Shown: one piece after another, positions 21,349-24,482 of the stretch | Layout of the letters: every line of letters starts with the position of its first letter | Position numbering within the stretch: position 1 is the first letter of the stretch | NCBI GenBank assembly: GCA_026001225.1 | Contig: BNZQ01000022.1 | Coordinates: 1 to 32,822, forward strand | Length of the DNA: 32,822 nucleotides | Source of the DNA: Clostridia bacterium | GTDB lineage: Bacteria > Bacillota > Clostridia > Christensenellales > DUVY01 | Direction of reading: 5' to 3' | Program-made: the position numbers and the translations under genes | Notes under the pieces: model-generated | Database searches by the model: none | Told to the model about the DNA's origin: nothing | Seen by the model: the letters and a program-made list of their open reading frames with translations, nothing else

Positions 21349-22662
21349 ATGTGTAAATTGGCGTTAGGGGGCGGTGAAAAAACCGTTAAGGAAAGCAAGG
21401 AATACGGCGTTCCGCTGGTCGCGGAGGAGACGTATTCCGTCATAGAGGAAATTTTGCGGAGCGGGCAAATTTCCGTCGCGTCCGTCACTGGACAGCTCGA
21501 GCGCGAGTTCGCGGCCTATGTCGGAACGCGGTACGCGCTGTGTACGCCCAACGGAACGACGGCTATACAAGCCGCGCTTTTCGCCGCGGGCGTAGGGCCG
21601 GGCGACGAGGTGATTGTTCCGTCGTTTACGTTTTGGGCGACCGTGGGGCCGGTCGTCGTCAACAACGCGGTACCGGTGTTCGCCGACGTGTCGCTTGACG
21701 GGCACAATCTGACGGCCGAAACGATCGCGCCGCATATCACGAAAAAAACGAAAGCGATTCTGCTCGTACACGTCTGGGGCGTACCATGCGACATGGATTC
21801 GATCGGCGCGCTTGCTAAAAAACACGGTTTGAAGGTGGTGACCGACTGCGCGCACGCGCACGGCGCGAAATACGGCGGCAAAAAGAATGCGATCGTCGGC
21901 GACGCGGCCGCGTTTTCGTTACAAGCCTCTAAAACCATGCCCGGCGGCGAGGGCGGCATTCTCGTGACGGACGACAGGGAGATCTACGAGAGGGCCGTCG
22001 CGCTCGGGCATTACGAGCGGCTGGGCGGACTGCCGCCGGATTCGTCCTATAATAGTTTGTCCTTGACCGGCGGGGGATACAAGCACCGTATTCATCCCGT
22101 CGCGGCGGCGATCGCCCTCGGGAATTTGCACCGCTTGGACGCCTCGACGGCCATCCGCAACGCAAACGCGGCGCGTCTCGAAGAATGGATCCGGGATTTG
22201 GATTTTATCGTTCTGCAGAAATCACCTCCAAAGTCCGGGCGGACGTATTCCTATCATTATATGCGTTATCTGCCGGACGGACTGAACGGGGTATCGACAA
22301 GCACGTTCTTAAAGGCTTTGGCGGCCGAGGGCGTACTCTGCGGCTCGTGCGGCTACGGCAGACTGCATACTGCGCCGCTGTATACGGGCGAGGGCAGCCC
22401 TTTCGGCAAGGCGGGGCCGTTTAAAAACCCATATTGGGAAAGGTATGCGCCGACGCGGGAGTTGCCGAATACGGAGCTTTTGGCACAAACCGCCTTTTTA
22501 GCCGCGCCGCGTTTTGAATATGCGGACGAAAAGGACGTGGAGCTATACGCCAAAGCATACCGCAAGGTAAGGGACAATGTAAAGGAATTGACGGCGTACG
22601 ATAAAAGCCACGGAGAGGCCTTCATAGACAACGCCGGCCGAAGCATCAACTATGTGAAATAG
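21349..22662 (+). CDS. DegT/DnrJ/EryC1/StrS family aminotransferase
   Basis: A 437-residue PLP enzyme of the sugar aminotransferase class. Visible family features are the N-terminal EETYSVIEEILRSGQIS segment, CTPNGTTAIQAAL (cofactor phosphate binding, about 65-77), DEVIVPSFTFWATVGPVV, VTDCAHAHGAKYGG with D166 under the pyridine ring, and LQASKTMPGGEGG with the Schiff-base lysine K195. These enzymes usually transaminate keto-sugars, some nucleotide-linked, using glutamate or glutamine; close relatives include dehydratases. The start has an AAAGGAG site at the right distance. Together with the Gfo/Idh/MocA oxidoreductase upstream it would form an oxidise-then-aminate pair, as in amino-sugar or aminocyclitol metabolism; that pairing is inferred. 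The gene appears complete and is followed by the 153-bp fold-back element. Confidence 0.9.
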   Translation: MCKLALGGGEKTVKESKEYGVPLVAEETYSVIEEILRSGQISVASVTGQLEREFAAYVGTRYALCTPNGTTAIQAALFAAGVGPGDEVIVPSFTFWATVGPVVVNNAVPVFADVSLDGHNLTAETIAPHITKKTKAILLVHVWGVPCDMDSIGALAKKHGLKVVTDCAHAHGAKYGGKKNAIVGDAAAFSLQASKTMPGGEGGILVTDDREIYERAVALGHYERLGGLPPDSSYNSLSLTGGGYKHRIHPVAAAIALGNLHRLDASTAIRNANAARLEEWIRDLDFIVLQKSPPKSGRTYSYHYMRYLPDGLNGVSTSTFLKALAAEGVLCGSCGYGRLHTAPLYTGEGSPFGKAGPFKNPYWERYAPTRELPNTELLAQTAFLAAPRFEYADEKDVELYAKAYRKVRDNVKELTAYDKSHGEAFIDNAGRSINYVK

Positions 22663-22668
22663 TTTTCC

Positions 22669-22679
22669 CGTTCCGCGCC
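22669..22679. repeat. Left copy of 11-bp direct repeat (possible target duplication)
   Basis: CGTTCCGCGCC at 22669-22679 is repeated exactly at 22833-22843. The match ends on both sides at those 11 bases, and the copies bracket the fold-back element, as expected of a target-site duplication. Confidence 0.6.
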
Positions 22680-22832
22680 GGGAGTGCGTAAATAGTGTCT
22701 ATTTCCGGTGTGCGCAAGAGTGGTTTTCAGACGGGCAACAGTTGTTTTGCCGCCGAAGGGAGTGTAGTTTGGTCTACATGACCGAGGCGGCAAGACAAAC
22801 GTAGCCCGTATCAAAGACACTATTGCGCACAT
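22680..22832. mobile_element. 153-bp MITE-like fold-back element
   Basis: The segment has imperfect terminal inverted repeats: GTGCGTAAATAGTGTCT at 22684-22700 and AGACACTATTGCGCAC at 22815-22830. Inside lie further nested arms: ACGGGC (22731-22736) with GCCCGT (22804-22809), a 13-14 bp stem of 22741-22754 with 22786-22800, and an apical TGTAG/CTACA hairpin at 22763-22778. A second copy of the terminal motif, TGTGCGCAAGAGTG, lies at 22709-22722. It is bracketed by exact 11-bp direct repeats and has no credible reading frame. A non-autonomous transposable element is the best reading; a structured small RNA is the alternative. Confidence 0.6.
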
Positions 22833-22843
22833 CGTTCCGCGCC
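22833..22843. repeat. Right copy of 11-bp direct repeat (possible target duplication)
   Basis: Exact second copy of CGTTCCGCGCC, immediately right of the fold-back element; see the left copy at 22669-22679. Confidence 0.6.
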
Positions 22844-22877: not shown

Positions 22878-24482
22878 ATGACGAAGCAGCGTAAATATTT
22901 TGAAATCATCGCCGGGATCGGGCGGCGCAGCGCGCCTGCGCCGGAGTTTCCGTATACGGCGGAGGGCTTGTCGGACGACATGGCGTATCACCGCGTGCAC
23001 GGCGCGCTCGTGACCGACATGACCGCGTTGGACTATTCCTTCGTGTCGGGCAACCGTTCCCTGTGCGAAACGTTGAAAAGCAATCCGCGTTTTGTGGGGG
23101 CGGCGCAGGTTCCCTCGACCGCGCTTTTAGAAACGGAGGACGGGGAATACTTCGAGAAGCTGTATCGGGGCGGCGTGCGTGCTTTTTACGCCGCGCCCGC
23201 GAAGTTTCGGCATTCCTTGCACCCCGACGATATGGAGGAAATCGCCCGGTTTTTGACGGAGAAAAAGCTGCCGCTTTTGCTTCGTTTCGACGAAGCGAAC
23301 AACGCCCATTTCGATATAGGCCCGTTTTTGCGGGCGTATCCCGAATTGAACGTCGTTTTGCTTGGCTGTTACTGGGCCTTTAACCGCTGGCTGTTCGCCG
23401 CGCTCGAACGGCATCCGAACCTGTATTTTGATATCGGCTGGAATCAAGCGAACGATTTGTTGGAATTGACGAAAAAGCATTTCGGGATCGAGCGCGCGCT
23501 GTTCGGAACCGATTGGCCTTCGCGGCCCATGGGAACGATCAAGGCCCTTGTCGAATACGCCGACCTTTCGGAAAAGGACAAGGATTTGGTAGCGGCCGGC
23601 AACGCGTTGCGGCTTTTGGGCTTGAGCGGCGATCGGTTTCCGCTCTATCCCGAAGCCGATTGCCGTTTAGACGCAATCGCCCGCGAAATGGAGGCGGGGA
23701 AGCCGTTGTCCGTACCGGTCTTCGACGCGCACACGCATATGATCCCGGCCGAGGACAAGACGGTCAGCGGCCAGCCGACGCTGCACGGCGATTGCGATAG
23801 CATCGTAAAGAAAATGGATCGGCTGGGCGTCGATTCGATTGTCACCGCGCCGTGGCAGGGTCTCAGCACGGACGGCAGGGCGGGTAACGCGCAAGCGGTG
23901 TACGCGGCGCAAAAATATCCGGGACGCGTTTACGGCTATTCCACTTGCAATATTCATTACGCCGAGGATGTAGAGGACTGCATACGGTACCACGAACGGT
24001 ATCCCGATATCTTTGTGGGAATCAAACCCTATTGGCCGTATCAGAAATTTGCGTTGACCGCTTCCGAATGCCGCCTATGGTACGAATACGCGGACAAGCA
24101 TCGGCTGCTGCTTTTGTTGCATACGGATTCGGAGAACAACGAAATCATCCGTCAAGCGGAGGAGCTGATCGTAAAGTATCCCGGTATGCGTTTCCTATTG
24201 GCGCACAGCGGCGGCGATTGGGACACGGCGCGCAGGAACGCGGCTTTAGCGAAGAAATACGCCAACGTTTATTTGGAGATCACGCTTACCTCCTGTACGC
24301 GCGGAGCGATAGAATATTTGGTCGCCGAAGCGGGCGCGGACAAGGTGTTATACGGTTCGGATACACCTTTACGCGACCCCGCGCCGCAGCTCGCCTGGGT
24401 GGCGTACTCGAAAATCTCCATAGAAGATAAAAAGAAAATATTCGCCGGTAATTTAAAGCGGCTGCTTGCGGCGATCGTATAG
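22878..24482 (+). CDS. Tandem amidohydrolase protein, first domain degenerate
   Basis: A 534-residue protein made of two Amidohydrolase_2-type barrels. The second (about 278-534) is complete: VFDAHTHM (H285, H287), a possible ligand H415 in LLLLHTDSEN, LAHSGGDW (H443) and LYGSDTP (D495). The first (about 1-250) keeps the fold outline and the final LFGTDWPSRP (D212) but has FEIIAGIG where the HxH should be and LLGCYWAF where a ligand histidine is expected, so it probably binds no metal. The first half resembles the second by layout, pointing to an old duplication with loss of activity in one copy. The start has a GGGAGAAAG site. It probably acts in the cytoplasm on a product of the upstream sugar enzymes; the substrate is unknown. 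Confidence 0.82.
   Translation: MTKQRKYFEIIAGIGRRSAPAPEFPYTAEGLSDDMAYHRVHGALVTDMTALDYSFVSGNRSLCETLKSNPRFVGAAQVPSTALLETEDGEYFEKLYRGGVRAFYAAPAKFRHSLHPDDMEEIARFLTEKKLPLLLRFDEANNAHFDIGPFLRAYPELNVVLLGCYWAFNRWLFAALERHPNLYFDIGWNQANDLLELTKKHFGIERALFGTDWPSRPMGTIKALVEYADLSEKDKDLVAAGNALRLLGLSGDRFPLYPEADCRLDAIAREMEAGKPLSVPVFDAHTHMIPAEDKTVSGQPTLHGDCDSIVKKMDRLGVDSIVTAPWQGLSTDGRAGNAQAVYAAQKYPGRVYGYSTCNIHYAEDVEDCIRYHERYPDIFVGIKPYWPYQKFALTASECRLWYEYADKHRLLLLLHTDSENNEIIRQAEELIVKYPGMRFLLAHSGGDWDTARRNAALAKKYANVYLEITLTSCTRGAIEYLVAEAGADKVLYGSDTPLRDPAPQLAWVAYSKISIEDKKKIFAGNLKRLLAAIV

Follow-up and report, generated by a model that had tools for sequence, protein, structure and literature searches.

The question raised by this locus is whether a short fold-back sequence lying between two genes is a transposable element or a structured RNA gene. 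The window, that is, the whole stretch of 32,822 nucleotides under analysis, belongs to a draft assembly (G000; 2.19 Mb in 230 contigs, 78% complete). The element occupies positions 22680-22832 on the forward strand and has a length of 153 bp. It is bracketed by two exact copies of CGTTCCGCGCC, the left one at 22669-22679 and the right one at 22833-22843. The original prediction had described a fold-back element between exact 11-bp repeats, and its coordinates are right to the base. Since the bases directly outside and inside both copies differ, the flanking repeat is exactly 11 nt long and, as had also been claimed, ends at the edges of the element. The upstream neighbor is a gene of the DegT/DnrJ/EryC1/StrS aminotransferase family (21349-22662, forward strand; PF01041, E 3.6e-79) whose stop codon is located 6 nt before the left duplication and 17 nt before the element start. 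Downstream follows an amidohydrolase-family gene (22878-24482, forward strand; PF04909, E 1.3e-30). The neighboring DegT protein was not found in the five relatives G001-G005.

The predicted folding energy of 22669-22843 is -87.3 kcal/mol versus -53.8 +/- 3.6 kcal/mol for 200 dinucleotide shuffles, none of which folded as well (z -9.2). The strong fold-back structure that had been proposed is thus confirmed. A repeat search returned a single inverted pair, 22706-22754 with 22786-22834 (49 nt, 80% complementary); as its minimum length was 12, this search is blind to the 11-nt flanking repeat. On the forward strand the element can be divided as follows. Arm A (22680-22700) is the left terminal inverted repeat, which pairs with arm C and is partially similar to the GGAGTGGACAAA ends of an IS1-family element discussed below. 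Arm B (22708-22727) is an internal second copy of the end motif and at the same time the 5' outer stem of a hairpin; it also pairs with arm C, and this outer stem covaries. Then comes the conserved hairpin core (22728-22812), which is common to subtypes I-III, is covered by most blastn matches and is represented in our alignment A1. Within the core, the apical motif GGAGTGTA-loop-TACATGACCGAG (22759-22786), identified by pattern match, recurs across phyla. Arm C (22812-22832), delineated by the inverted-repeat pair, the fold and the duplex prediction, is both the right terminal inverted repeat and the 3' outer stem. The predicted duplexes with arm C amount to -24.1 kcal/mol for arm A (computed with 22680-22707) and -21.5 kcal/mol for arm B. 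The internal second end-motif copy reported earlier is therefore real, as either arm is able to pair with arm C. None of the Rfam 15 covariance models matched the window at its gathering score, and when matches up to E = 10 were admitted, the sole match was a plant miRNA (E 7.7), which is meaningless.

In G000, blastn with the 153 bp gave 40 scored matches, the window copy included. The closest copy is 92% identical over 149 nt; the similarity runs from 22681 to 22829 and thus nearly reaches the element edges. It is the only other nearly full-length copy in this genome, and most matches cover the 85-nt core or a part of it. The contig with this closest relative also holds a reverse-transcriptase domain (PF00078, E 6.9e-19; G000:C5:54456-54935). 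A covariance model (R1) was built from the 24 copies of alignment A1. It gave 72 matches in G000, corresponding to at least 64 places after dropping eight opposite-strand duplicates; 150 of 767 candidates were scored in this search. From 118 matches of the model on both strands of 71 fetched sources we retained 63 strong copies (at least 73 bits), of which 43 are from G000, 16 from its congener G001 and four from G003, a member of the same family. Reading by eye, we distinguish type I hairpins with the ends TAACGGC...GCCGTTA, type II with GAGTGGCAAAGAGTGG... ends, to which the window element belongs, and type III with AGCCGYCGCAGATTGG... ends. Type IV is more distant; one of its members gave 25 blastn matches, itself included, the last few being short. 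Since automatic subtype assignment disagreed for several copies, only type II was used in the counts of duplications, as a hand-picked list of 13 strong copies. An additional internal domain is present in the 3' half of four G000 copies (L019:10375-10495, L022:133-332, L031:243-359 and L033:1967-2103), and a motif resembling this domain is also found in L154, from another genome.

Exact flank repeats of at least 9 nt are present at four of the 13 type II copies, each repeat being different and 9-11 bp in length; the remaining 50 strong copies lack them. Pairing left and right flanks taken from different copies gave repeats of at least 9 nt in 6 of 932 combinations and an 11-nt repeat in none. 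The four duplications are CGTTCCGCGCC in the window, GGGACGAGAG at L010, AACGGATAA at L009 and CTCACGCGG at L110; the last is less clean because it overlaps the last three bases of the element. Near repeats were seen by eye at two further type II copies, L025 with one mismatch and L022 with 7 nt, the latter being a weaker copy outside the 13. At nine of the 13 copies, an exact repeat of at least 9 nt is absent. The forecast of near-identical copies with different 11-bp duplications held for the most part: there are many dispersed copies and several differing duplications of 9-11 bp, but the closest nearly full copy is just 92% identical and exact repeats of at least 9 nt flank only the 4 of 13 copies mentioned.

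The ends of the type II copies point to a possible source of mobility. We counted 29 occurrences of the end pattern GGAGTGGNCAAA in G000 and one of the reversed pattern. One pair of these ends encloses an 857-bp element of the IS1 family with GGAGTGGACAAA ends (L271:1501-2357). Its two reading frames of 93 and 183 codons both match the IS1 transposase model NF033558 (E 9.3e-11 and 3.5e-7), and the second frame also matches DDE_Tnp_IS1 (E 1.9e-4). Both transposase halves score below the curated cut-offs because each frame represents one half of a split frame. No clean target duplication was found at the 857-bp element itself. Copies of the L010 type have the GGAGTGGACAAA ends in common with it. 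The ends of the window element itself, GGGAGTGCGTAAATAGTG, show only a partial match to IS1-family ends, and the copy L297 is a hybrid with a window-like end on one side and a GGAGTGGCC end on the other. The window-like end pattern gave 10 matches in G000 versus two for the reversed pattern, some apparently within genes, and no insertion sequence bounded by such ends was seen among these matches. We also observed mini-elements of about 53 bp which have the same IS1-type ends and are devoid of the hairpin core (L277:1501-1553, L036:2072-2124, L276 and L295). IS1 elements duplicate about 8-11 bp of their target. The 11 bp of the window and the 9-11 bp of its sisters fall within this range.

The window element has 153 bp, no transposase of its own and several copies in the genome. 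The ends of type II copies resemble those of the 857-bp IS1-family element, which makes an IS1-family MITE the best reading of the window copy. It has in common with such MITEs a short noncoding unit with terminal inverted repeats, duplications of 9-11 bp in some copies and an IS1-type transposase in the same genome; it differs by its cargo, which is palindromic and conserved, by an internal repetition of the left end, and in that its ends match the insertion sequence found only in part. IS1-type mobilization appears to be the best reading for the window element, the suggested link running through intermediates such as L010 and L297. We consider it probable that the element is a recently inserted IS1-family MITE with a passenger hairpin from a much wider palindromic family. 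Dispersed copies, differing duplications and a candidate IS1-family partner with related ends all support the insertion of a nonautonomous transposon that had been proposed from the start. The alternative of a structured RNA, which had been offered alongside, retains some force for the inner hairpin, which shows RNA-like covariation and also occurs without transposon ends.

This inner hairpin recurs without insertion sequence ends or duplications. In alignment A1, 91.2% of the stem cells are paired, versus 74.2% with shuffled partners and 30-43% when the partner strand is slid. Doubly changed stem cells number 144 compared with 45 in the shuffles, and 24 of the 36 pairs have changed on both sides. 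The unpaired G-A positions are invariant in the 24 copies while the stems differ. The members of the passenger family are palindromes roughly 120 nt in length, whose internal loops are conserved (tandem G-A motifs) and whose stems vary freely but stay complementary. In the stems, G.T outnumbers A.C on the model strand, by 80:33 in 76 copies from other genomes, by 40:21 in the 44 of the 63 strong copies which could be split at the apex, and by 18:4 in 11 copies before start codons; in 21 copies flush with a stop codon the ratio is 12:13, without a G.T bias. A 50-sequence alignment comprised 49 of 77 listed sequences and the window element. Model R2, derived from the wide alignment, kept just eight base pairs and was not used. 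A T-run (at least four T in 8 nt) follows the hairpin on the reverse side in 26 and on the forward side in 20 of the 63 strong copies. The strong copies therefore show no clear T-run of the kind that an intrinsic terminator would have directly after the stem in gene sense; some alphaproteobacterial copies may be terminators, as A- or T-runs were seen by eye at the stem ends of L179, L215 and L240.

The hairpin is not confined to the relatives of the window's genome. We scanned one genome per species (84,980 species) for GGAGTGTA-N6..11-TACATGACCGAG and found at least 115 stretches, compared with about three expected for a 20-base pattern at even base composition. Among the matches listed are records from Clostridia, Coriobacteriia, Alpha-, Gamma- and Deltaproteobacteria, Helicobacter, Bacteroidales, Lentisphaerae and others; Desulfobacterales are also among the carriers. 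Most carriers are metagenome assemblies, and the isolates Helicobacter bilis, Grimontia marina, Dyella kyungheensis and Anaerocaecibacter muris are likewise among the listed matches. A single hairpin of at least 85 nt was predicted with 100-nt flanks at 84 of 107 loci versus 23 of 286 controls, for which the apex was given flanks from 300-700 nt away; matches less than 100 nt from a locus end were excluded. Within the order to which the window belongs, the exact motif is present in 20 of 396 genomes, two of which hold 14 and 16 copies, and a search of the 396 genomes for the reversed motif gave no match. G149 has 16 copies of the motif, the other sampled members of its genus none. The records L127 and L214, labeled as an uncultured bacterium and Candidatus Egerieousia excrementavium, share a stretch of about 550 bp that includes the hairpin and is 99% identical. 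No match was found in phages and plasmids by blastn (E 0.01) or in viral contigs with the exact motif. At 15 further loci, the only Rfam models which matched were those of tmRNA and tRNA, and no family covers the hairpin. Word searches of the open-access literature, together with one sequence fragment, retrieved no description of this hairpin. It appears, as far as these searches show, that the family has not been described.

A surprising feature of the hairpin family is its polarity toward gene ends. Both ends of the hairpin were treated alike, and we asked for a reading frame of at least 100 codons with its stop between -15 and +25 of the edge. Among types I and III, a stop codon is located at the tail of 31 of 50 copies and at the head of four. 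For the other genomes, the 107 wide hairpins were reduced to 73 by keeping lengths of 85-190 and removing duplicates, with seven loci dropped from the wide set (three of G001, one of G003, two of another assembly and one Helicobacter bilis duplicate); here the figures are 43 of 73 for the tail and three of 73 for the head. In type II a stop codon is found at the tail of five of 13 and at no head; since these five are also at a stop codon, type II may mix MITEs with ordinary gene-end hairpins. In flush copies the model strand, that is, the strand with the G-A loop, is antisense to the adjoining gene. Any preference of the tail for start codons is weak, with 17 (tail) versus 11 (head) of 50 for types I and III and 12 versus 11 of 73 for the other genomes. 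In the ribosomal operon of G000 (L019:3000-6523), four hairpins start on the stop codons of nusG, rplA, rplJ and rplL (genes named by eye). RNA genes are also joined. Six copies from other genomes adjoin tRNA genes, with the tail to the 3' end of tRNA-Asn, tRNA-Ser and tRNA-Leu and, in the other three, to the 5' end of tRNA-Gly (two of these share a contig), and one copy of G000 (L016:2013-2136) is located 4 nt from the 5' end of tRNA-Phe. Two copies lie inside an alphaproteobacterial tmRNA gene; the match to alpha_tmRNA in L156:2206-2983 extends over 778 nt and scores 192.7 bits. L171, another record, has a hairpin which is 97% identical to the L156 copy, with similar flanks.

Orthologous sites give an impression of the dynamics. 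The 3' ends of nusG and rplA carry a hairpin in G000 and are empty in G001, with 90% identity of the rplA protein; the two genomes are too diverged to reveal the insertion boundaries at either site. At rplJ, G001 has by eye a diverged type IV copy, which model R1 did not report. A hisF-like gene (named by eye) is preceded by a type III copy in both G000 and G001 (L081:2060-2186 and L097:2038-2162), and among the strong copies no other site common to these two incomplete genomes has long similar flanks on both sides. Of 48 pairs at the hisF site, six have changed on both sides with pairing kept, four have changed on one side and five are broken. The corresponding numbers for the 44 pairs at rplJ are four, two and seven, and one pair is affected by a gap. 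Conservation of the unpaired positions does not exceed that of the paired ones (0.69 versus 0.77 at hisF and 0.80 versus 0.80 at rplJ). In addition, one genome has, at two unrelated loci, copies with 99.2% identity over 125 nt, and the identity stops at the ends of the hairpin. From the gain or loss at orthologous sites, the pairing at hisF and rplJ and these nearly identical copies we conclude that the hairpin moves and that much of the pairing is kept afterwards, be it by selection or by template switching. The compensatory changes at the hisF and rplJ sites would also fit a host function of the passenger.

How should the passenger be understood? It is conceivable, with the odds somewhat against it, that the main role of the hairpin is that of a functional RNA or cis-regulatory structure, such as a 3' UTR or leader element, and that the window copy was captured by IS1 ends. 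The massive stem covariation, the pairing largely maintained between G000 and G001 at the hisF and rplJ sites, the excess of G.T over A.C on the model strand and the precise placement at stop codons, beside tRNA genes and inside a tmRNA gene all speak for this. However, the stop-codon-flush copies are antisense to their gene and lack the G.T bias, the distribution is very patchy, the orthologous nusG and rplA sites are empty and no Rfam family exists. Moreover, template switching between inverted-repeat arms, a mechanism described for hairpins, can yield compensatory changes (PMC8794818). That such correction of quasi-palindromes is the only cause of the covariation, which would then carry no information on function, we hold to be unlikely. 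The equal numbers of G.T and A.C in the stop-codon copies and the lack of better conservation at unpaired positions of the hisF and rplJ sites are in line with it, but it leaves unexplained why the unpaired G-A positions are invariant in 24 copies with differing stems and why the hairpins have a gene-end polarity. A chance inverted repeat or an assembly artefact is next to impossible: the window does come from a fragmented draft assembly of 230 contigs, yet the folding z-score of -9.2, the 40 blastn matches, the lack of any reversed-motif match in 396 genomes and the presence of the same family in isolate genomes refute this.

A further possibility, which we regard as quite improbable, is that the passenger belongs to the REP/REPIN type and is mobilized by a Y1 (RAYT) transposase. 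Like these elements it is palindromic, dispersed and extragenic, and some REPs of E. coli are reported within 15 nt of stop codons, where they stall ribosomes (PMC12306157). Matches to Y1_Tnp were present in 6 of 10 carrier genomes versus 3 of 10 genomes that lack the motif. Of the six matches in carriers, however, five are partial or weakly scoring, and none was found in G149 (16 motif copies, 96% complete), G379 (nine copies, 94% complete) or G000 (78% complete). In size and form the two also differ: REPs are described as 20-40 bp long with a GTAG or CGTC tag (PMC3733652), whereas the passenger has about 120 nt, a conserved apical core and internal loops, and a fixed polarity to the gene end; no terminal GTAG or CGTC tag was seen on these hairpins. 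Since the high-copy carriers G149 and G379 are without a Y1/RAYT gene, a Y1 transposase was rejected as mobilizer. The same holds for a reverse transcriptase, which is present in 4 of 10 carriers versus 1 of 10 noncarriers and absent from G149 and G379; with so few genomes compared, a weak link may have gone unnoticed. The Rickettsia palindromic elements RPE-4 and RPE-6 and other CGTC-tagged repeats resemble the passenger in being palindromic with no known dedicated mobilizing enzyme; the CGTC repeats have stems of 8-9 bp and loops of 4-5 nt (PMC3733652), whereas the passenger has several stacked stems with conserved internal loops.

Another known system shows similarity in placement. The attC site of integrons is a long imperfect hairpin on a stop codon whose folding strand is antisense to the gene. 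The passenger is likewise a long hairpin on a stop codon with an antisense folding strand, but among its neighbors are nusG, rplA, rplJ and rplL, which are housekeeping genes of a conserved operon rather than cassettes.

We suggest the following scenario. In our reading, the passenger is a selfish or semidomesticated mobile hairpin which would spread by means of an enzyme in single-stranded or folded form. IS1-type ends may then have come to flank one such hairpin, and this would be the origin of the MITE. An IS1-family enzyme would have moved the window element in trans. As a nonautonomous MITE, it came to lie between the DegT gene and the amidohydrolase gene, and its insertion led to the duplication of 11 bp of target. 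For the family as a whole we put forward, as a serious possibility that falls a little short of an even chance, that the passenger stands for a new class of mobile hairpins that spans phyla. These would insert with fixed polarity exactly at gene ends (at stop codons, at tRNA ends and inside permuted tmRNA genes) by an unknown enzyme or by a route coupled to RNA or the ribosome, and would often supply the stop codon of the gene which they join.

In summary, the MITE is ordinary but its cargo is not. The cargo has a length of about 120 nt, is structured and has an apex that recurs; its range extends from Clostridia to Helicobacter, Alphaproteobacteria, Desulfobacterales and Bacteroidales. Its frequent placement to the base on gene ends suggests an unknown mechanism of mobility or RNA processing at stop codons, and the hairpin family is a natural data set to separate selection from template-switch correction in the evolution of hairpins.
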